Assembly (NCBI RefSeq): GCF_000422885.1
Contig: NZ_AUGX01000020.1
Location: 1-64,000, forward strand
Length of the DNA stretch: 64,000 nucleotides
From: Ottowia thiooxydans DSM 14619
GTDB taxonomy: Bacteria > Pseudomonadota > Gammaproteobacteria > Burkholderiales > Burkholderiaceae_C
Direction of reading: 5' to 3'
Shown here: one piece after another, positions 1-54,362 of the stretch
Numbering within the stretch: position 1 is the first letter of the stretch
Layout of the letters: the number at the start of each line of letters is the position of its first letter
Notes under the pieces: generated by a model
Databases searched by the model: none
The model's input: only the letters and a program-made list of their open reading frames with translations
Told to the model about the DNA's origin: nothing
Program-made: the position numbers and the translations under genes

Positions 1-266
1 ACTGCCTCGATCTTGATGCGCACAACTTGGGCCTGCTGAAGCTCGGCAAACACACGATCGAGCACGCCACTCTTGGACCAGCGACTCATGCGCGTGTAGA
101 TGGTGTGCCAGTTGCCCAAGCGCGCGGGCAGGCCACGCCATTTGCACCCGTGCTCAGCAACATAAAGAATCGCATTCAACACGTCCAAATTCGAGACACC
201 TACATTGCCGCGCTGTACAGGAAGGCAGTGCTCGATCTGGGCAAACTGGGCTGGTGTGATTTCCAT
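1..266 (-). CDS. IS5-family transposase, N-terminal part (cut by window edge)
   Basis: The minus strand reads from an ATG at 266 through the window edge and starts MEITPAQFAQIEHCLP, followed by a tryptophan-rich helical segment including GCKWRGLP and a conserved NWHTIYTRM. This is the N-terminal DUF4096-type domain of IS5-family (IS427-like) transposases, which bind the element ends and carry out DDE transposition. Only about 88 residues are visible, so the catalytic DDE part lies outside and I cannot say whether the copy is intact. The likely end of the element is near 300-318, where the sequence runs into repeat family A; no terminal repeat can be confirmed without the other end. It marks the start of an accessory region. 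Confidence 0.8.
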   Translation of the reverse strand, partial: MEITPAQFAQIEHCLPVQRGNVGVSNLDVLNAILYVAEHGCKWRGLPARLGNWHTIYTRMSRWSKSGVLDRVFAELQQAQVVRIKIEA

Positions 267-318
267 GGATGAAGTATCTCTGGCCACCCAGGGGTAACTC
301 AATTAGTGTTAACACGCC

Positions 319-583
319 CTAGCTTGCAGCCGCTGTTTGAACGTAGAGAACGAAGTGAACGCAGTGAGTTCGGCTGCACCGCCCCTTGACCGAGCATCGC
401 AAGTTGCCCGGAGCGCAGCGCAGGGACGCGTCCGGTGGGGCGCCTTTTCTTTGGTTCCTTACTTTGGGCGAGCAAAGAAAGGGACTGCGCAGCCGGGCGC
501 AATCCCGGCCTCCGACCTCAATCGAAGAACAGAAGCTAGTTAAAGAGCGCGTAGTAACACAATCAAACACTACGCTCCTCACT
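319..583 (+). repeat. Repeat family A, copy 1 (5'-truncated)
   Basis: This copy starts at CTAGCTTGC and holds the 3' half of the family A element. Its first stem pairs GCAGCCG (326-332) with CGGCTGC (371-377). A second hairpin pairs GTTCC..CTTTG with CAAAG..GGGAC around 454-485. A third is the small GCCGGG/CCCGGC stem near 491-510. The 5' half present in other copies is missing, possibly removed by the IS5 insertion whose end lies just to the left. It shares its tail (about 530-583) with copy 2 rather than with copies 3-6. The stretch from 267 to 646 contains no gene that I can support. Confidence 0.8.
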
Positions 584-646: not shown

Positions 647-2818
647 ATGATCACTCAGCACAGCCTCAACATCGAGATCGGTGCCGGACGCCACCTGAGT
701 CGAGGGCGCTTCAGTTTTTCGCGTAACGTTCAGGCTTGCGGGATTGGACTTTCGGGCTACAACGCACGCTTGCTGGGCAGTGACGACGATGAGCTGGGCA
801 TGCTGTCCATCCTGCTGGATGTCAAGGTGACGCCTGATGACAAGAGCGCGGTCGAAGTAACCATCGATGTCGAAGTTCGCGATGTGGACCTCAGCGCACG
901 CTATACGGCACTGATTGAATTCGTCATCTTCGCGGAGCTTGAGCCGGTCGGCGCATTAGTACCCGGTGAGCCGAGGCCTGACATCTGGGTAACCGGGATC
1001 GAATTCAATCAAGCCATCCAGGCTTTCCGGAGCAGCCAACATCTGGCCATACAGCATGCACTTCCGGATAACGCCATTCCATTGGTTGAGGGTAAACCCA
1101 CCTGTGCACGTGTCTATGTGGACCTCGATGGGAGCTCCACCCATCCAATGTCACCGCTTTCAGGCACATTGACTATTCGCAATGGAAACCAGGAAATTAC
1201 CGTGTCTCCGGTCGCCTTCACTGGCGTTGATGGCGTGGCAATCGACGCGCCAGTTGCTGAAATTACGCCACATCCTGATGGCATCGTGTCTCGCCAACGC
1301 GCTGATCGAACGCTCAATTTCTTGCTCCCCACCACGCTGTGCGAAGGTGAACCGACCATCACGGTCAACCTCGTGCTTGTGAATCGTCCAGGTGAGTTCG
1401 TGCGTGAGTACCGTTCCCAGACCAAGTTCGTCAAAACAACGCCACCACCGATCCATCTCGTCGGAGTGCGTTACACCGGGCCGGATGTTGGACCGCACCG
1501 CATTCCAGGTGCATCCACGTTCTACCCACTTCCTTCCGAATGTCGTAACGAGATGGCCTTTGCAAATCGGTTGTACCCGATGGCCCCGATCACATCCAGC
1601 TACGACTACATGGATTGGTCAGAGGCGCCCGACCCCGATGGAAATTCGCCTGTCTGCGACTCGTTTGGTGGCATTGTTAGCGCGCTGTTGGACATGCTCG
1701 GTGATAGACGCGGGGTCATCGTCGGCTTCATGCCGCCTGGTTACCCACGGGCCGGTGGATGTGGCGGAGATGGCGGCTGTGTTAGCCGGATCGACAGCGG
1801 CAGCGACGCTAGGTTCGCGCATGAGTTCGGGCACGCCCTGGGTTTCGATCACGCGCCCTGCCAGCCTGGGGAGTGTGTACGCATGCCTCCAAACCCGGAT
1901 GACAACTATCCAAACTATCAGCCTTATGCGATTGGCAGCATTGGTGAGTTTGGGGTGGAGATCAATGGCTCAAACATCACCCTTCGGACCCCTCAGGTTT
2001 CCCGCGACGTGCTTGGCTATGCTCCAACTCAGTGGGTGAGTCCATACACCTATCTGAACGCGTTCAACCAGTGGTCTGCACACTATATGAACCCCTCCCC
2101 GATGAGCATGACTGTGGGAGAGCCGGTGTCCGGCAAACGCGAGAACTTGTTTCTTGACATCCAGATTGATCGGCAAAGGCAAGTCACGCTCGCTTCAACT
2201 TTCCATTTTCCAGTCCGTCCGCGCACGTTGCAGAAGCGCTCAACTGCTTTTTCCATTGAATTCTCGGGTGAGGACGGGCGTGTGCTGGTGTCAAGCCCTA
2301 TCTATGATGAAACGTACAAGGATGGCGGCGGTTGTGGATGCTGTGGCTCATCGAAATGGCCAATCAGGTATCGCCATCCTGTGCCCTACGATGTACGGGC
2401 TAAGAAACTGTCGATCTATGAATGCGACGAGCTTATTCATGAGGAGTGCATCCCCGCCGCCCCTGTCGTCCAAGTGACGGCGACTGGCCATGACGACGAG
2501 TGCTCACCGCACGTTGTATTGGAGTGGAGCGTTGAGCAGCCTCAGGGGTGCGCGGCCGATCTGATCTACGTGGTACAGGTTCAGGTTGACGGCGGGGATT
2601 GGGCTGGCCTCGCTCCCCGCAGTACGAAGCCGTTCCTCATCATTGACAAGACCCGTTTGCTTGACAGCTTGAAGTTGACCAAGCTGCGGGTGCTCGCCTC
2701 AAGCGGCATTGCGACGGGCATTGGTTACTGGGAGAGTCCCATTGCCTACGAACCCTGTGCGCCTGAGCGACACGTCAAGAGAATTCAGACGCAGCGCGTA
2801 ATGCATGGGCCGCAATAG
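647..2818 (+). CDS. Putative metzincin-type zinc metalloprotease, 723 aa
   Basis: The key feature is HEFGHALGFDH at residues 392-402, the long zinc-binding HExxHxxGxxH motif of metzincins, where three histidines hold zinc and the glutamate is the catalytic base. No signal peptide is visible, so if it is secreted another route is needed. Residues about 1-100 are beta-rich and resemble, in a diverged form, the whole of the small protein encoded just downstream. Cysteine/glycine clusters lie just before the zinc site (GGCGGDGGCVSR) and in the C-terminal third (GGGCGCCGSS). The C-terminal part (about 605-700) looks like a fibronectin-III-type beta domain, with alternating hydrophobic strands and WSVEQP. 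The start at 647 is the first ATG of the frame and has only a weak ribosome site. Its place beside an IS end suggests an acquired gene. The substrate is unknown; the protease call is firm, the family assignment less so. Confidence 0.75.
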   Translation: MITQHSLNIEIGAGRHLSRGRFSFSRNVQACGIGLSGYNARLLGSDDDELGMLSILLDVKVTPDDKSAVEVTIDVEVRDVDLSARYTALIEFVIFAELEPVGALVPGEPRPDIWVTGIEFNQAIQAFRSSQHLAIQHALPDNAIPLVEGKPTCARVYVDLDGSSTHPMSPLSGTLTIRNGNQEITVSPVAFTGVDGVAIDAPVAEITPHPDGIVSRQRADRTLNFLLPTTLCEGEPTITVNLVLVNRPGEFVREYRSQTKFVKTTPPPIHLVGVRYTGPDVGPHRIPGASTFYPLPSECRNEMAFANRLYPMAPITSSYDYMDWSEAPDPDGNSPVCDSFGGIVSALLDMLGDRRGVIVGFMPPGYPRAGGCGGDGGCVSRIDSGSDARFAHEFGHALGFDHAPCQPGECVRMPPNPDDNYPNYQPYAIGSIGEFGVEINGSNITLRTPQVSRDVLGYAPTQWVSPYTYLNAFNQWSAHYMNPSPMSMTVGEPVSGKRENLFLDIQIDRQRQVTLASTFHFPVRPRTLQKRSTAFSIEFSGEDGRVLVSSPIYDETYKDGGGCGCCGSSKWPIRYRHPVPYDVRAKKLSIYECDELIHEECIPAAPVVQVTATGHDDECSPHVVLEWSVEQPQGCAADLIYVVQVQVDGGDWAGLAPRSTKPFLIIDKTRLLDSLKLTKLRVLASSGIATGIGYWESPIAYEPCAPERHVKRIQTQRVMHGPQ

Positions 2819-3166: not shown

Positions 3167-3275
3167 TAGTTCCCCCTGAGTCGCTTCGCGCCATCCCCCT
3201 GAGGGGGACGCAGCCAGCGGCCTGGCAAAGCCAGCTCCGCGGCTACCCCGCATGGCCTGCTCCGCGGCCTTCTGA
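3167..3275 (+). repeat. Repeat family B, copy 1
   Basis: A GC-rich intergenic element beginning with a CCCCCTGAGTCGCTTCGCG hairpin. It continues through GGGGGACGCAGCCAGCGGCC, CTGGCAAAGCCAG and CTCCGCGGC, and ends in GCTCCGCGGCCTT. The same series occurs in reverse at 13334-13482 and in diverged form at 23545-23672. It follows the stop codon of the small gene directly and could serve as a terminator-like structure, but it has no U-run. It contains no reading frame with protein-like composition. Confidence 0.75.
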
Positions 3276-3282
3276 TCTTGCT

Positions 3283-3457
3283 CCCTCTCCCGCAGGCGGG
3301 AGAGGGCTGGGGTGAGGGTTGGCAGCGCGTCTATTACGAATGAGTTCTTTTTTTGGCGCATGAAGTCGTAGATATTCCTGCCGATGTAGGCCTGAAAAGG
3401 TCGGTTGTGATTGAGGCGCTGACCCTCACCCCACCCTCTCCCGCCTGCGGGAGAGGG
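3283..3457. repeat. 175-bp inverted-repeat element (MITE-like)
   Basis: The left arm (3283-3328) and the right arm (3416-3457) are near-perfect reverse complements of each other. Each arm itself contains the hairpin CCCTCTCCCGC/GCGGGAGAGGG followed by a GGGGTGAGGG block. About 87 bp of unrelated sequence separates the arms. This architecture fits a non-coding miniature element. I see no transposase and cannot identify a target-site duplication. Confidence 0.6.
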
Positions 3458-3490: not shown

Positions 3491-3875
3491 GGGCCGAGCG
3501 CAGCAATGGCCCGAGTGGGTATCCCACCCCTTGAGGCCGTGCCGAGGAGCGCAGGGCAAGGGGCGTGCAAGAGCACTGCAAGATGCTCTTGCTTCAAGAA
3601 CTAGCTTGCGGCAGCTGTTTGAACGTAGTGAGCGAAGCGAACGGAGCGAGTTCTGCCGCACCGCCCCTTGACTGAGCACCGGAGGGTGCCCGGAGCGCAG
3701 CGCAGGGACACGGACTTGGGGTCGCATTTCTTTGGTTCCTTACTTTGGGCGAGCAAAGAAAGGGACTGCGCAGCCGGGCGCAATCCCGGCCTCCGACCTA
3801 AATTGAAGAACAGAAGGTCGTTACAAAGCGCGTACTAACCCAATCAAATGTCGTCGCTCCTAACTCAGCAGCAAA
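3491..3875 (+). repeat. Repeat family A, copy 2
   Basis: The copy starts at GGGCCGAGCGCAGCAATGGCCC, lacking the first (CTTTCCC-type) hairpin. It contains the CAAGAGCA/TGCTCTTG hairpin near 3568-3591. The main stem pairs GCGGCAG (3608-3614) with CTGCCGC (3653-3659), two base pairs of which differ from copy 1 in a compensated way. The CTTTG/CAAAG hairpin lies around 3742-3763 and the GCCGGG/CCCGGC stem around 3774-3790. Its tail matches copy 1. Together with the two preceding repeats it fills the gap from 3163 to 4029, where I find no gene. Confidence 0.8.
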
Positions 3876-9493: not shown

Positions 9494-9528
9494 TAAATCT
9501 CAGGTCGAGTTGCTGTTAATCGAAAAAC

Positions 9529-9618
9529 ACCGTTCGGGCTGAGTCTGTTGAAGCCTCGCGCGGTGCTTCGACCCTTCGACCAGGCTCAGGACATGCCAAG
9601 CTCAGCGTGAACGGGTGT
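9529..9618. repeat. REP-like repeat family C, copy 1
   Basis: This imperfect palindrome runs from ACCGTTCGGGCTGAG to GCTCAGCGTGAACGGG with inner halves GTGCTTCGACC and AGGCTCAGGACATGCC. Related copies lie at 41229-41295 and 47490-47605. The TTCGGGCTGAG / CTTCGAC sequence type is widespread in beta- and gammaproteobacteria as intergenic palindromes. It lies between argJ and the ATPase gene and may act as a transcription or mRNA-stability element. Confidence 0.7.
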
Positions 9619-10566: not shown

Positions 10567-11018
10567 ACGATCCCCTCATCAAAGCCGACACGCACTTGCC
10601 GCGTGCGCAGGGCGGGGAGCGGCCTGTAGTGGATGTGGGCGTGGGTGTCCTGTTCAGAGCAGACGGCGCGTTCTTGCTCACCTCACGGCCCGCAGGCAAG
10701 GTCTACGAAGGGTACTGGGAGTTTCCTGGCGGCAAGCTGGAGGCGGGCGAAACCGTGGAGCAGGCTCTGGCGCGCGAGCTGCACGAAGAGCTGGGTATTC
10801 AGGTGGAGCCTGCGCAAGTCATCCGTTGGCGGGAACAAATGGTGGACTATCCACACGCCTTGGTACGGCTGTATTTTTGCAAGGTGACCACCTGGCAAGG
10901 CGAGCTTTCAATGCGCGAAGGCCAGGCTTTTGCCTGGGAGAGCTTGCCAGTACAGGCAACTCCGGTATTGCCCGGCGCGCTCCCCGTTCTACGATGGTTA
11001 GAAGAAGAGACTCCCTGA
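10563..11018 (+). CDS. mutT: MutT-type Nudix hydrolase (8-oxo-dGTP diphosphatase), 151 aa
   Basis: The Nudix box runs from G57 to about residue 79 (GGKLEAGET then RELHEELGI), preceded by YEGYWEFPGG, the sequence typical of true MutT proteins that remove 8-oxo-dGTP from the nucleotide pool and so prevent A:T to C:G mutations. The start is GTG at 10563, overlapping the preceding stop in GTGA. The N-terminal 20 residues are longer than in E. coli MutT. An 11-bp gap separates the stop from repeat A copy 3. Confidence 0.88.
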   Translation: MNDPLIKADTHLPRAQGGERPVVDVGVGVLFRADGAFLLTSRPAGKVYEGYWEFPGGKLEAGETVEQALARELHEELGIQVEPAQVIRWREQMVDYPHALVRLYFCKVTTWQGELSMREGQAFAWESLPVQATPVLPGALPVLRWLEEETP

Positions 11019-11028
11019 CAGCCTCCAC

Positions 11029-11664
11029 AAGAACCGTGACAAGGCGCTGATTTTTCATGCTGATGTGAATATATGAGCCTGCGCGGATCTTGAACGTGTT
11101 GCTAGAGCCCACTCTGCCAAAGCCTTGAATTTTTCTTTCCCGATTGGGAAAGACGAGCATCCTGAGGGCCGAGCGCAGCGATGGCCCGAATGGGTATCCC
11201 ACCCCTCTGGCCGCGCTGAGAAGCGCAGGGCAAGGGGCGGGCAAGAGCACTGAAAGATGCTCTTGCTTCGTGAACTAGCTTGCAGCCGTTGTTTGAACGT
11301 AGAGAACGAAGTGAACGCAGTGAGTTCGGCTGCACCGCCCCTTGGCTGAGCATCGCAAGTTGCCCGGAGCGCAGCGCAGGGACGCGTCCGGTGGGGCCGC
11401 CCTTTCTTTGGTTACTTTCTTTGGGCCGGCCATCCGGCGGCGGAGCGAACGAAAGTGACTGCGCTGCCGGGTGCAATTCCCGGCCTCTGACTTCGGGAGA
11501 AGAGCAGGGGGTAACTCGCAACGCAGCGCTCAATCAACCGCCGCTTGCCCCCACCGGTTGGCCGGCCCCGCCCCACCTTCCCCCAGAGGGGGAAGGAGTA
11601 ACCCAGCTCACAGCCTCGGGTTCTGGGGCTCAAGTCGGCAGGCGCACCTGCATCAGCCTCTCCC
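11029..11664 (+). repeat. Repeat family A, copy 3 (full length, about 636 bp)
   Basis: This and copy 6 are the longest versions, alike from AAGAACC (11029) to the closing CTCTCCC. Hairpins in order are CTTTCCC/GGGAAAG (11135-11152), GGGCC/GGCCC, CAAGAGCA/TGCTCTTG, the main stem GCAGCCG/CGGCTGC, GTTACTTTC (11411-11419) with GAAAGTGAC (11451-11459), GCCGGG/CCCGGC and CCTTCCCCC/GGGGGAAGG (11576-11596). The loop of the fifth hairpin contains the 14-bp module GGCCGGCCATCCGG, which recurs in the tail as CCGGTTGGCCGGCC. It fills the whole gap between mutT and the converging yacG gene and contains no gene. Confidence 0.85.
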
Positions 11665-11671
11665 AGGGCGG

Positions 11672-11899
11672 CTATTGAAGAGGCACTCCGCTTTCTGGCG
11701 TAGTGGCGCCATCGTCCTCTTGCACCTCCATGCGGAAACTCTCGCTGGCCCAGGCGCCGAGGTCATGCATTTTGCAGCGCTCGCTGCAAAAAGGCCTGAA
11801 GATGTTCTCCGGTGAGTAGAGGCTGGGGCCGCTACAGGCCGGGCAGCGCACGGTGCGAGGCTTGTCTGCCTTCTGCGGAGGGGTAGGCGGGGTGCTCAT
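11672..11899 (-). CDS. yacG: DNA gyrase inhibitor YacG (zinc-binding), 75 aa
   Basis: YacG is a small zinc protein that binds GyrB and blocks DNA binding by gyrase. The zinc site is C19-x2-C22 and C38-x3-C42 (CPAC and FCSERCK), followed by [12 protein letters not shown], the normal C-terminal motif. I use the ATG at 11899 because it overlaps the zapD stop in ATGA; an in-frame ATG at 11905 lies inside zapD. It is the last gene of the pil-coaE-zapD-yacG run. Confidence 0.93.
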
Positions 11900-23731: not shown

Positions 23732-24245
23732 CAAGATTTGAATTTATCTTTCCCCGCTAGGGGAAAGACTAATTACTCAAAGGCCGAGCGCAGCAATGGC
23801 CCGAGTGAGTCTCCCCACCCCTCTGGCCGTGCCGAGGAGCGCAGGGTAAGGGGCGGGCAAGAGCACTGCAAGATGCTCTTGCTTCGTGAACTAGCTTGCG
23901 GCAGCTGTTTGAACGTAGAGAGCGAAGTGAACGAAGAGAGTTCTGCCGCACCGCGCCTTGACCGAGCACCGCAGGTTGCCCGGAGCGTAGCGCAGGGACA
24001 CGGCAAGTGGGGTCGCCTTTCTTTTGCCTACGTTTCTTTGGCGAAGCAAAGAAAAGTAGGTGCGCTGCCGGGCGCAATTCCCGGCCTCCGACCTAAAGAG
24101 AAGCGCAGAAGGCCATTAGCAACTGCAGCGCTCAATCAACCGCCGCTTGCTCTCACGCCGCAGCCGGCCGCCGCCCCCGCCCTCTCCCAGAGGGAGAGGG
24201 AGTCAATACCCTCGCCCCAACCCTCCCAGAGGGAGAGGGGGTTAA
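23732..24245 (+). repeat. Repeat family A, copy 4
   Basis: Hairpins in order are CTTTCCCC/GGGGAAAG (23748-23767), CAAGAGCA/TGCTCTTG near 23857-23882, main stem GCGGCAG/CTGCCGC (about 23898-23949), and CCTACGTTTCTTTG (24027-24040) with CAAAGAAAAGTAGG (24047-24060), here with a minimal GCGAAG loop. The tail has two CCCTCTCCCAGAGGGAGAGGG-type hairpins in tandem. The element separates obgE from proB, genes that are often adjacent. Open frames across it are not gene-like. Confidence 0.82.
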
Positions 24246-26895: not shown

Positions 26896-28641
26896 ATGAA
26901 AGCATCCCAGTTCCTCATTTCCACACTCAAGGAAGCTCCGGCGGACGCCGAGGTTGTCAGCCACCAGCTGATGACCCGCGCCGGAATGATCAAACGCCTG
27001 TCAGCAGGTGTGTATACCTATATGCCGATGGGCTTGCGCGTCATACGCAAGGTTGAAGCCATTGTGCGAGAGGAAATGAACCGTGCAGGCGCCGTGGAGT
27101 GCGCCATGCCGGTGGTGCAACCGGCTGAATTGTGGCGGGAAACTGGCCGGTTCCAATCCATGGGTGCCGAATTGCTTCGCATCAAGGATAGGCACGAGCG
27201 TGATTTCGTCATCCAGCCTACTAGCGAAGAGGCCGTGACAGACATCGCGCGCCAGGATTTCCGCAGCTACAAGCAGTTGCCCAAGAACATCTATCAGATC
27301 CAGACCAAGTTTCGAGATGAACGCCGTCCGCGCTTCGGCTTGATGCGTGGACGTGAGTTCACCATGAAAGATGCCTACAGCTTCGACCGTGATGAAACCA
27401 GCGCCAAGGCCAGCTATCAGATCATGGCACGGGCTTACCGGGCCATCTTTGATCGTTTTGGGCTGAGCTATCGCGCGGTAGCGGCAGATTCCGGCGCCAT
27501 CGGCGGCGATATGAGTGAAGAGTTCCAGGTGATCGCCTCCACCGGTGAAGACGCCATCGTCTACAGCACCGGCAGTGAATACGCCGCCAATATGGAAAAG
27601 GCCGAAAGCGCTGCGCCAGCTGCATCGCGCCCGGCCGCCACGCAAGCCTTGACGAAAACTCCCACGCCCGCAAAGAGTACCTGCGCGGATGTGGCTGAGT
27701 TGCTGAACATCTCTTTGAGTGCCACGGTCAAATCGCTTGTGCTGGCCACGGATGCGCTTAATGATCAGGGTGAGATCGTAAAGACTCAGGTCTGGCTACT
27801 GCTGCTGCGCGGTGACCATGACATGAACGAGATCAAGGTTGGCAAGCTGCCAGGGCTGGATCAGGATTTCCGTTTTGCCACGGTCCCTGAAATCATCGAG
27901 CATTTCGGCACCAAACCTGGCTATCTCGGCCCGCTCCAGCTGAAAAAGCCCGTCAAGGTCATTGCTGACCGTGAGGTGGCCGTGATGGCGGACTGGGTCT
28001 GCGGCGCCAATGAAGAAGATTTTCACCTGACAGGTGTCAATTGGGGCCGTGATTTGCCCGAGCCTGATCTGGTGGCTGACATCCGCAATGTGGTGGCTGG
28101 CGATCCCTCGCCAGACGGGCAGGGCGAGCTGGCTATTCAGCGCGGCATCGAGGTGGGTCATATCTTTTTCCTGGGCACCAAATACAGCCAGCCCATGAAC
28201 GCTACCTTCCTCGACGAAGACGGCAAGCCCAAGCATTTCCAAATGGGCTGCTATGGCATTGGCATCACCCGCCTGCCAGCGGCGGCTATTGAGCAGAACC
28301 ACGACGAGCGCGGCATCATCTGGCCTGACGCCATTGCCCCATTCACCCTGGTGATCTGCCCTGTGGGCATGGACCGCAGCGAAGCGGTGAAAACCAGTGC
28401 TGAAAGCCTCTATCAGGAGCTGTTGGCTGCCGGTGTCGATGTCATCATTGATGATCGCGGCGAACGTCCTGGGGCCATGTTTGCCGATTGGGAACTCATC
28501 GGTGTGCCACACCGCGTGACCATCGGTGATCGCGGGCTGAAAGAAGGTCAGGTCGAGTACCAGCACCGTCGCGATGCCGCGCCCACCAAAGTGGCTGCCG
28601 GTGAGATCGCTGCTTTCGTGAAAGGCAAGCTGGGGGCATGA
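26896..28641 (+). CDS. proS: Prolyl-tRNA synthetase ProS (bacterial type), 581 aa
   Basis: ProS attaches proline to tRNA-Pro. It is the bacterial form with a YbaK-type editing domain inserted between class II motifs 2 and 3 (about residues 225-400). Motif 2 is [20 protein letters not shown] (divided around R/F), and the GCYGIGITR motif 3 and anticodon-binding C-terminal domain are complete. The start is the ATG at 26896 ([15 protein letters not shown]); an earlier in-frame ATG adds eight atypical residues. Confidence 0.97.
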
Positions 28642-29438
28642 GCGCAGCGCCGGGCCGCCCCAAGCAAGCTCTCACCGTAGGCGAAGCTGGAGGTGTGTCC
28701 ATCAGCGCAGCGCCGGGCCGCCCCAAGCAAGCTCGCACCGCAGGCGAAGCCGAAGGTACGTGCCAAATACGCGTGGGTGGCGGGCCGCTGATTGCGAGCG
28801 GAATTTCAAGGAGAAAACTCCTCTTATCGGCGCCCGTGATGGCCGGGCCGTTATTGATCCCAGAGCCGGCTTGGGCGGGCGGGCAGTTGGAAGAGCCGTT
28901 GATGGACTCGGTGCGCACTGCACTGAGTTCTGCCGTTGCCAACAGGGCGCCGCCCGTGCCAACCTTCAGCTCCACTGCCGCGCGCCTTTCCTATCTCCGA
29001 TGGCTTTCAAGCATGAGCGACCGGCTCTACGGACGCAAGAAAGAGTTTTCCAGCCGGATCGAGTTTCTGCAGACGGTTTGGTATGAGGCCCGGCGTGCGG
29101 GACTAGACATTTCCCTGGTGCTGGGCTTGATACAGGTGGAAAGCGCGTTTCGCAAGTTTGCAGTCTCCAGCGTAGGCGCTCGCGGATATATGCAAGTGAT
29201 GCCTTTCTGGACCAGAGTGATCGGCGATGGCGACCCCGGCAAGCTGTTCCATATGCAGACCAATCTTCGCTTTGGCTGCATCATCTTGCGGCATTACCTG
29301 GATCGTGAGCGGGGAGATACCTTCATGGCCCTGGGACGCTACAACGGCTCTCGCGGAAAACCGCAGTATCCCAACGCGGTCACAGGAGCGCAGAGCCGCT
29401 GGCTCTGGAGCGATCAAGCATCCCCAACCGGGGCTTGA
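28638..29438 (+). CDS. Lytic transglycosylase (SLT domain) with Tat-like signal, 266 aa
   Basis: The SLT domain (about residues 140-260) has the catalytic glutamate E168 in [15 protein letters not shown], then [12 protein letters not shown] and [10 protein letters not shown]. Such enzymes cut peptidoglycan glycan strands in the periplasm. A twin-arginine-like leader ([17 protein letters not shown]) begins only at residue 57. The ATG at 28638 overlaps the proS stop (ATGA). The first 45 residues come from a tandem repeat of a 63-bp unit, so the native start may be the GTG at 28773 just before the leader. The last 25 bp overlap the convergent CNNM gene. Confidence 0.85.
28641..28766 (+). repeat. 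Two tandem 63-bp units inside the start of the transglycosylase gene
   Basis: The unit beginning AGCGCAGCGCCGGGCCGCCC recurs exactly 63 bases later (28704) with a few changes. Both copies keep the reading frame and encode [10 protein letters not shown]-x-TxGEAxG twice. The unit is GC-rich, repetitive and unlike the rest of the gene. Confidence 0.8.
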
Positions 29439-37344: not shown

Positions 37345-37812
37345 AAGGTCTTCAATTTATCTTTTCACGGCACGGAAAAGACGAACCATTCGAGGGCCGA
37401 GCGAAGCAATGGCCCGAATGGGTATCCCACCCCTTTAGGCCGTGCCGAGGAGCGCAGTGCAAGGGGCGGGCAAGAGCACTGAAAGATGCTCTTGCTTCGT
37501 GAACTAGCTTGCGGCAGCTGTTTGAACGTAGAGAGCGAAGCGAAAGAAGAGAGTTCTGCCGCACCGCATCTTGACTGAGCACCGGAGGGTGCCCGGAGCG
37601 CAGCGTAGGGACACGGACTTGGGGTCGCCTTTTTTGTGCATACTATTTTTGGGCCGGCCATCCGGTGGCGACGCAAAAAATAGTATGTGCGCCGCCGGGC
37701 GCAATTCCCGGCCTCCGACTTCGATACAAGCGCAGAAGGTAATTAGCAACCACAGCGCTCAATCAACCGCCGCTTGCCCTCACCCCAGCCCTCTCCCAGA
37801 GGGAGAGGGAGT
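37345..37812 (+). repeat. Repeat family A, copy 5
   Basis: Hairpins in order are TCTTTTC/GAAAAGA, CAAGAGCA/TGCTCTTG, main stem GCGGCAG/CTGCCGC and CATACTATTTTT (37639-37650) with AAAAATAGTATG (37676-37687), a stem whose sequence is unlike the other copies yet fully paired. The loop holds GGCCGGCCATCCGG. The tail ends with CCCTCTCCCAGAGGGAGAGGG. The gap from 37269 to 37858 contains no gene and lies between convergent genes. Confidence 0.85.
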
Positions 37813-41192: not shown

Positions 41193-41228
41193 CTGGCTGA
41201 TACCGAACTGCGTTAAACCTATAAACAC

Positions 41229-41295
41229 CGTTCGGGCTGAGCTTGTCGAAGCCTTGCGCAGAACTTCGACCCGTCGAACTTACGCCAAGCTCAAG
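41229..41295. repeat. REP-like repeat family C, copy 2
   Basis: CACCGTTCGGGCTGAGCTTG, then CTTCGACCCGTCGAAC, then CCAAGCTCAAG. It starts as copy 1 does but is shorter. It lies at the 3' end of dcd and overlaps its last codons. Confidence 0.6.
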
Positions 41296-53878: not shown

Positions 53879-54362
53879 GTCCCTTCTGCTCTTGTATTGA
53901 GGTCGGAGGCCGGGATTGCCCCCGGCAGCGCAGTCCCTTTCTTTGCTCGCACAAAGCAAGGAACCAAAGAAATGCGACCCCAAGTCCGTGTCCCTGCGCT
54001 GCGCTCCGGGCACCCTCCGGTGCTCGGTCAAGGGGGCCGGCCATCCGGGGCGGTGCGGCAGAACTCACTTCTTTCGCTTCGCTCACTACGTTCAAACAGC
54101 TGCCGCAAGCTAGTTCTTGAAGCAAGAGCATCTTTCAGTGCTCTTGTCCGCCCCTTACCCTGCGCTCCTCGGCACGGCCTCAAGGGGTGGGAGCCATGCT
54201 CGGGCCATTGCTGCGCTCGGCCTTCGGGAGGTTAGTCTTTTCCTATCGGAAAAGAAAAAAATTTAAGACTTTGACAGAGCGGACTCTAGCAACACGTTCA
54301 CGATCCGCGCAGGTTCATATATTCATCTCAACATGAAAAATCAGCGCGTTATCGGGGTTCTT
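53734..54362 (-). repeat. Repeat family A, copy 6 (full length, about 629 bp)
   Basis: This is the minus-strand counterpart of copy 3, alike along its whole length. Seen on its own strand, it has CTTTTCC/GGAAAAG near 54237-54254, CAAGAGCA/TGCTCTTG variants near 54121-54147, main stem GCGGCAG/CTGCCGC (about 54055-54106), GTTCCTTGCTTTG/CAAAGAAAGGGAC and a CCTTCCCCC/GGGGGAAGG tail hairpin (53796-53816). The GGCCGGCCATCCGG module is here inserted next to the main stem (about 54034-54051), a different place from copies 3 and 5, and again in the tail (53825-53838). With the flanks it fills 53584-54428. Confidence 0.85.

Follow-up and report, generated by a model that had tools for sequence, protein, structure and literature searches.

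What is the element at positions 11029–11664 of the window, the whole 64,000-nucleotide stretch of Ottowia thiooxydans DSM 14619 DNA that was analysed, and in what form does it act? A preliminary description had counted six copies of it, had seen hairpins whose letters change while their stems stay paired, and had proposed a mobile or regulatory element selected as folded RNA or as a cruciform. The element now looks like a little-known kind of mobile DNA.

The six copies are present where they had been placed: all align with one another at those positions, and a profile search finds them again. A direct-repeat search of the window recovers five of the six, the sixth lying on the opposite strand. 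Their extents shrink, as only a unit of about 305 nt is strongly conserved. This unit, termed the arm and defined as a profile of 305 positions, is complete in five copies and truncated at its 5' end in the other. Copies 2 (3492–3791), 3 (11167–11485) and 4 (23782–24086) are complete single arms on the plus strand by alignment and profile search, as is copy 5 (37395–37713) by profile search; copy 6 (53908–54222, alignment and profile search) is a complete single arm on the minus strand. Copy 1 (316–510, plus strand), near the contig start, holds profile positions 107–305 only, its first third being absent. Window positions 1–166 are identical, reversed, to positions 3226–3391 of locus L098 near the end of contig C10, so that copy 1 is close to a repeated contig edge. 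Copy 3, the core of the finding, has in addition a plus-strand head (11029–11166), common to copy 6 and some further copies in the own genome, and a plus-strand tail (11486–11664) with a G+C-rich palindrome, both less conserved than the unit at 11167–11485. Two loci of the same genome carry internal deletions and retain head and tail, a tail similar to that of copy 3 being kept in the internally deleted L088 and L096 (both by eye). According to a home-made codon-usage gene caller all six copies are intergenic, as had been claimed. The window holds other repeats: one of CACCGTTCGGGCTGAGCnTGTCGAAGCC type, resembling a REP palindrome, has two copies 78% alike at 9506–9579 and 41204–41277, and at 28628–28753 a 63-nt unit stands twice in tandem, 86% alike, running over one gene's end and into the start of the following gene.

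The stems quoted earlier are present as written, for example GCAGCCG/CGGCTGC in copies 1 and 3 and GCGGCAG/CTGCCGC in copies 2, 4, 5 and 6. They do not form the simple row of hairpins that had been described, since helix P1 closes a nested domain of P2, P3, P4, P5 and P6, outside which stand P0, a short GNA-capped hairpin, P7 and P8. The arm is thus one multi-branched domain with hairpins on either side. In copy 3, read along the plus strand, P0 (11167–11186) is a start hairpin with a GGCC stem and a GCGCAGC cap, GCGNAGC being found here in 116 of 119 arms. The 5' strand of P1 (11202–11215) contributes to the covarying pair 49-219 and joins a 3' strand at 11383–11396, assigned by covariation and the pair table; the two strands lie about 170 columns apart and covary nonetheless. 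Within P1, the 5' strand of P2 (11218–11228) carries the motif GAGNANCGNAG with regular mismatches and its 3' strand (11348–11359) the motif GAGNANCGCANG. P3 joins 11232–11240 to 11335–11343 (covarying pairs 67-178 and 73-172), and the hairpin P4 occupies 11241–11266 (78-99, 79-98, 81-96 and 85-91). P5, the main stem of the preliminary description, pairs 11282–11288 with 11327–11333 (119-166 and 122-163) and is followed on its 5' side by the variable hairpin P6 (11294–11324; 132-156, 138-150 and 141-147). The short hairpin region with GCGNAGC lies at 11363–11381, the motif occurring there in 101 of 119 arms. Beyond P1, the A/T-rich stem P7 pairs 11411–11419 with 11451–11459 (246-279, 247-278 and 249-276), and the terminal hairpin P8 (11466–11484), placed by sequence and coordinates, forms the arm's outer end.

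This fold is conserved while its letters change. The evidence comes from 189 complete arms, of which 143 are distinct and 119 remain after collapsing at 95%. The covariation analysis that the preliminary description proposed compared these 119 arms with 40 structure-free alignments simulated on a fitted tree (smallest resolvable E 0.025), and 20 column pairs covary at E<0.05 against this phylogenetic null. Sixteen of the 20 join stem columns that are canonical in 76–100% of arms, and the other four (140-147, 138-147, 247-279 and 241-254) are canonical in 0–56%. Watson-Crick pairs fill 6775 of 7368 cells. In a second alignment of 30 chosen arms, 93.8% of cells are paired against 38–47% with slid partners, 34 of 59 pairs are changed on both sides, the covariation score is 0.355 against 0.036–0.081 when slid, and none of 500 shuffles attains the real pairing or covariation values; the slid control flatters the fold because the structure rests in part on the very sequences being tested, a fault from which the simulated null is free. 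The RNAalifold consensus of the 119-arm alignment is weak because hairpin lengths vary. Certain mismatches are as constant as the pairs: G.A and A.G in P6 (130.158 and 131.157) occur in 119 of 119 arms, and the A.G, A.A (57.187) and G.A mismatches of P2 in 98, 97 and 92 of 119, respectively.

Related arms extend far beyond this genome. A plain DNA search gives matches in 19 of 29 genomes of the same genus, the 10 without a match including several incomplete ones, in 132 of 250 genomes of the family, in 126 of 399 of the order, where matches beyond the family are mostly to the P7 hairpin, and, with another query, in 30 of 369 of the class, again mostly to P7. Copy numbers from the family, order and class searches are lower bounds, since two candidates per genome were scored. 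By eye, the class loci L395 and L399 have P2 motifs and P7 together, and in L396 to L398 P7 is present but P2 motifs are not clear. In loci ranging from the genus to other orders, 140 of 238 pairs of GAGNANCGNAG copies 50–200 nt apart enclose a complementary run of at least 6, against 6 of 238 with a random partner (loci partly redundant); P3 sequences differ widely across groups, and the P2 motif strands enclosing them are conserved. Among the matches listed (at least 115 loci), one exact pattern of the arm is held mainly by Polaromonas, Variovorax and Acidovorax, further holders listed being Paracidovorax, Rhodoferax, Simplicispira, Xenophilus, Xylophilus, Ottowia and Pseudorhodoferax. Judged by these matches, the element family spans the Comamonadaceae, its order and, in part, other orders. 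One window arm has no record in a phage collection and two records among plasmids, and one exact pattern has no match in viral contigs. Word and sequence-string searches of open-licence papers brought up no account of the element.

Many of these arms stand in pairs. Within 80 of at least 115 named loci there are 48 adjacent pairs no more than 400 nt apart, besides 36 single arms; 47 of the pairs are head to head, 1 is in the same direction and 0 are tail to tail. Raising the limit to 3 kb and taking the window with the loci as far as L230, a partly redundant set, gives 76 pairs: 65 head to head, 7 in the same direction and 4 tail to tail, of which a single genus supplies three. The tail-to-tail loci (L137/L190, L191 and L223) come from one genus and one other family. 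Head-to-head placing gives each DNA strand one arm in folding orientation and leaves the outer P8/P7 ends inverted relative to each other. The partners are 66–84% alike (median 73%, 25 complete pairs) and usually belong to two subtypes by eye. The listed head-to-head gaps measure at most 389 nt except at L217, L188 and L189. L188 and L189 have ORFs in long stretches between their arms; with every other listed gap so short, a cargo gene between arms was rejected as a general feature. At L217 (922–1419), a 165-aa ORF, a possible cargo, stands between two arms that belong to a different subfamily and are inverted to each other; against Pfam it has a sub-threshold match only (E 0.19).

The question of the folding molecule has been answered in part. 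The compensated fold withstands the null model and the slid and shuffled controls; its assignment to RNA, as first stated, finds no support in the orientation counts, the DNA-type caps and the head-to-head pairs. Hairpins of the arm end in GNA-loop caps, a kind of mini-hairpin whose RNA form is much weaker. In DNA such mini-hairpins are extraordinarily stable, with GCGAAGC melting near 78 C, and the relevant passages of one source name GNNA loops likewise (PMC4686876). GCGNAGC occurs 3.82 times per arm on the arm strand against 0.56 in shuffled sequence, a 6.9-fold enrichment that is not a probability, as cap repeats within one arm may share ancestry. Its reverse complement occurs 0.24 times per arm against 0.37, and RNA-type C-GNRA-G caps 0.66 times against 1.72. 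Folding energy does not separate the two molecules: the z values of 24 arms average -3.81 (arm strand) and -3.96 (opposite strand) as RNA and -4.13 and -3.53 as DNA, the difference on the arm strand having p=0.11. Folded alone as DNA, 2 of 4 short hairpins are no better than shuffles.

The main rival, unlikely and still a serious contender, takes the arm for a structured RNA of transcript 3' regions (an mRNA stabiliser, a decay block or a free small RNA) that spread as a repeat. Strong covariation and conserved mismatches would suit an RNA, as would the position of arms behind genes and also between the operon genes mdtB and mdtC, gene pairs that nevertheless occur elsewhere without the element. 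Stem cells with G.U exceed those with A.C (198 vs 64, or 2.7% vs 0.9%), which marks the arm strand as the folding strand and also counts in favour of RNA; the deficit of GNRA caps and the excess of GNA caps run the other way. Five of the six window copies are oriented like the preceding gene, but as a rule this failed on 37 single arms between co-directional genes, of which 21 have the same sense and 16 the opposite (8 and 9 in the own genome). The region 11018–11700 has 0 sigma-70-type promoter or intrinsic terminator patterns (terminator shuffles mean 0.7). The proposed Rfam search yielded no family: release 15 gives 0 matches at threshold in the window; around copy 3, five matches with E<=10 (best 0.2) stay below threshold, as do two with E<=1 in eight related loci, neither of these two over an arm. 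Near a head-to-head pair, L193 has a sub-threshold TPP riboswitch match (1827–1948, minus strand). Caps, orientation counts and head-to-head pairing together lean towards DNA, and not RNA, as the acting form, and the element may act as folded single-stranded DNA.

The copies of the own genome (7.05 Mb, 78 contigs) bear on how the element spreads. The start-hairpin pattern with at most 2 mismatches has 85 sites there and the reversed control pattern 0; with copy 3 as query there are at least 41 matches (best 40 of 126 candidates scored). Forty distinct complete arms share 75–99.7% identity (median 87%), with at least 95% in 29 of 780 pairs, and by this measure most of the copies are judged not to be young. 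Of 41 listed sites on contigs of known length, 9 are no more than 600 nt from a contig end, against an expectation by length of 0.17. The loci fetched hold single arms and no head-to-head pair; four same-direction neighbours are listed, of which two are at one place. L004 and L005, two copies from different contigs, share 96% identity over 549 nt and 99.7% in their arms, between unrelated flanks, and both ends of the unit (about 1350–1990) lie within G+C-rich palindromes of CTCCCGCATGCGGGAG type. This suggests fairly recent copying of the unit as a whole, and this palindrome-ended unit could be what moves in this genome. No target duplication is evident at either place. Two near-identical copies at unrelated places, along with the filled and empty sites considered below, agree with the dispersed, mobile type of element first proposed.

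Gene context is biased. By a home-made gene caller, with element-free gaps of at least 60 nt for comparison, divergent gaps make up 4 of 85 with the element vs 40 of 150 without it (p=1.8e-5), and convergent gaps 35 of 85 vs 17 of 150 (p=2.3e-7). In a larger, partly overlapping set of 131 gaps, 61 are convergent, 64 tandem and 6 divergent. Scanned for protein families, 20 flanking proteins gave ordinary genes or nothing. A RAYT was considered as mobiliser and rejected for want of a physical link: 0 of 16 fetched Y1 transposase loci have a credible arm, and repeats around three Y1 genes show nothing of note. Y1 genes are found in 15 of 19 arm-positive vs 3 of 10 arm-negative genomes (p=0.017) when short IS200-type matches (G022, G027) and the below-cut-off G025 are excluded, a co-occurrence that vanishes when any match is counted (15 of 19 vs 6 of 10, p=0.39). 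One complete genome of the genus (G028) has about 20 matches to PF01797, the Y1 transposase family, several split into two adjacent frames. At L106 a transposase-like gene (1604–2761), which we take to be IS30-like, is inserted in the A/T-rich hairpin region of an arm; this locus was rejected as an autonomous copy because the gene is an insertion into the arm.

Several known systems resemble the element in some features and differ in others. In integrons, attC recombination sites are recognised as one folded DNA strand that contains mismatches, with the core RYYYAAC ... GTTRRRY; this core is present on either strand in 0 of 119 arms, and the arm's fold is far larger and branched. The early promoters of phage N4 are GNA-capped DNA hairpins formable in the cell, single, small and read by a phage RNA polymerase; the arm shares their caps, and the one window arm compared has no match in the phage collection. 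MITEs resemble the element in being non-coding and dispersed, with inverted parts and filled and empty sites. For the element neither a target duplication, at the sites inspected, nor a parent transposase, among the flanking proteins scanned, was found, and its inverted parts are long and separately folded. REP and REPIN sequences are another parallel, described as intergenic, in many copies, occurring as inverted doublets with a spacer and as singles, predicted to fold as single-stranded DNA, and keeping their pairing by complementary changes (PMC3116915, PMC2817692). The intergenic multicopy habit, inverted doublets, singles and pair-preserving changes are common to both, the doublet being the rule among close pairs in relatives (47 of 48) and absent from the own-genome loci fetched. 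Four enterobacterial REP sequences of the published table have a GCGNAGC cap too (PMC2817692). The REPs tabulated there are roughly 20–40 nt long, have GT(A/G)G as their head and lie on the flanks of a rayt gene (PMC2817692). The arm, in contrast, is about 300 nt long and multi-branched, its partners are 66–84% alike, GT(A/G)G reaches no more than 57 of 119 arms at any column, and the Y1 loci fetched, 16 in all, were devoid of credible arms. The betaproteobacterial intergenic repeat BRE, about 90 bp long and often tandem, has features of a mobile element as well and occurs in some of the same genera and in Polaromonas sp. JS666 (PMC3110155). By length and arrangement BRE differs from an arm of about 300 nt that is rarely tandem (same direction in 1 of 48 and 7 of 76 pairs), though the two may overlap in part.

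Filled and empty sites are best seen at the junction of mdtB and mdtC in an efflux operon. Among the best 24 of 30 same-genus loci, both arms are present in 7 and one arm, at a contig edge, in 2; 1 keeps a short relic, and 14 have none, 2 of these being so near a contig end that an arm could have been missed. The junction is also filled in Variovorax (L338), Polaromonas (L286, L314, L389), Acidovorax (L341) and a Xylophilus MAG (L301), and mdt flanks lie on both sides of arms in 6 of at least 115 named loci and on one side in 3 more. In Polaromonas, Variovorax and Acidovorax the mdt arms are closer to arms of their own genus than to the mdt arms of other genera; in the window's genus 4 of 6 left-hand arms have an orthologue as their nearest arm, and of the 7 right-hand arms none has. 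These kinships mean that the site was hit repeatedly or that copies convert each other. One ancestral, conserved insertion was rejected, as the clustering by genus contradicts it; the left-hand arms of the window's genus partly group by locus, and the Xylophilus mdt arms and the MAG L293 fit neither pattern clearly. Likeness within a genome could reflect gene conversion in place of movement.

In a second genus, G252 has an arm pair where the same place is empty in G662, G664, G032 and G169; G665 has an arm piece farther off at a contig edge, and in G663 the corresponding place did not turn up. By eye, a small palindromic repeat is present at all four empty sites; in G252 it stands on both sides of the element as inverted copies, and it blurs the element's boundary on inspection for a target duplication. 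It is found no more than 150 nt from the outer end in 31 of 181 arms (4.3 expected), 28 of them in like orientation, and was not found in the window. Behind the gene next to copy 5, the stretch fetched from relatives that have this gene is without an arm in 17 of 17, although contig ends shorten it in several cases.

Arms at orthologous places in several species, together with the DNA-type caps, would fit an element that was formerly mobile and is now kept for a function as DNA: a folded single-stranded or cruciform site, one per strand when paired, bound by a host protein or marking gene ends. Pair changes between orthologous arms are mostly preserving (205 double and 148 single) vs breaking (128 single and 32 double) in 48 redundant pairwise comparisons with 163 gap cells set aside, and substitutions are about equally common in paired and unpaired columns (0.139 vs 0.161). 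Copying between loci could yield the same pair-preserving changes, so they are not proof of function in place, and since all 7 right-hand mdt arms of the genus are closer to arms at other loci than to their orthologues, such copying can account for some of the preserved pairing. At any one site the element is missing from many species, and 10 of 29 same-genus genomes, several of them incomplete, have no match; a retained DNA function is judged distinctly unlikely.

Hairpins are known substrates for template-switch correction. If template switching corrected imperfect palindromes and copies converted each other, compensated changes could arise with no selection at all, and homogenisation within the genome is visible. 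Against this very improbable origin stand stem mismatches that remain uncorrected at the same places in arm after arm (all at 130.158 and 131.157, most at 57.187), a P1 that covaries across its long span, and P2 motif strands conserved across groups while P3 between them changes freely. The last alternative, remnants of coding genes or real overlapping small ORFs, has been refuted: ORFs of 100–200 aa can be read through or into several copies, but six of the seven overlapping window ORFs have no Pfam match at E<=1 and the other a chance match (0.58), hairpin length differences among copies break the reading frame, and the stems covary beyond the phylogenetic null, so that the early denial of decayed coding DNA holds.

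The preferred reading, which we consider to have an even chance of being right, is that the copies form an old family of mobile DNA between genes, REPIN/MITE-like and non-autonomous, which would be read in the form of folded single strands of DNA. In its fuller form, seen in relatives, two arms of about 300 nt, akin yet not the same, face each other head to head across a short spacer, each folding as one multi-branched single strand with P0, P1 enclosing P2–P6, the short hairpin, P7 and P8. We infer movement by a transposase and the following course of events. The folded single strand would be exposed at replication forks or in an excised intermediate, where a transposase supplied in trans would recognise it. 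New copies would settle, or survive, behind genes and away from promoters, and in the own genome single-arm forms bounded by short palindromes would have multiplied.

A wider proposal can be offered only tentatively, as a guess that is more doubtful than probable. The arms may belong to an unnamed superfamily across orders of the class, selected as a branched single-stranded DNA fold. When paired, each strand would offer one folding arm; the fold would have an internal helix whose mismatches keep a conserved rhythm, with GAGNANCGNAG on both strands, and GNA-capped hairpins. Such a fold may be moved by an enzyme that reads it, or serve the host as a strand-neutral signal wherever single strands are exposed, for instance in replication restart at gene ends.

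Repeats of this type occur in many genomes; small ORFs can be read in them, and here they coincide with assembly breaks. Should the fold be under selection as DNA, they would form a large natural set of structured single-stranded DNAs, far more elaborate than REP hairpins, and the enzyme that reads them, as well as their action on forks, supercoiling or mRNA ends, would become testable.
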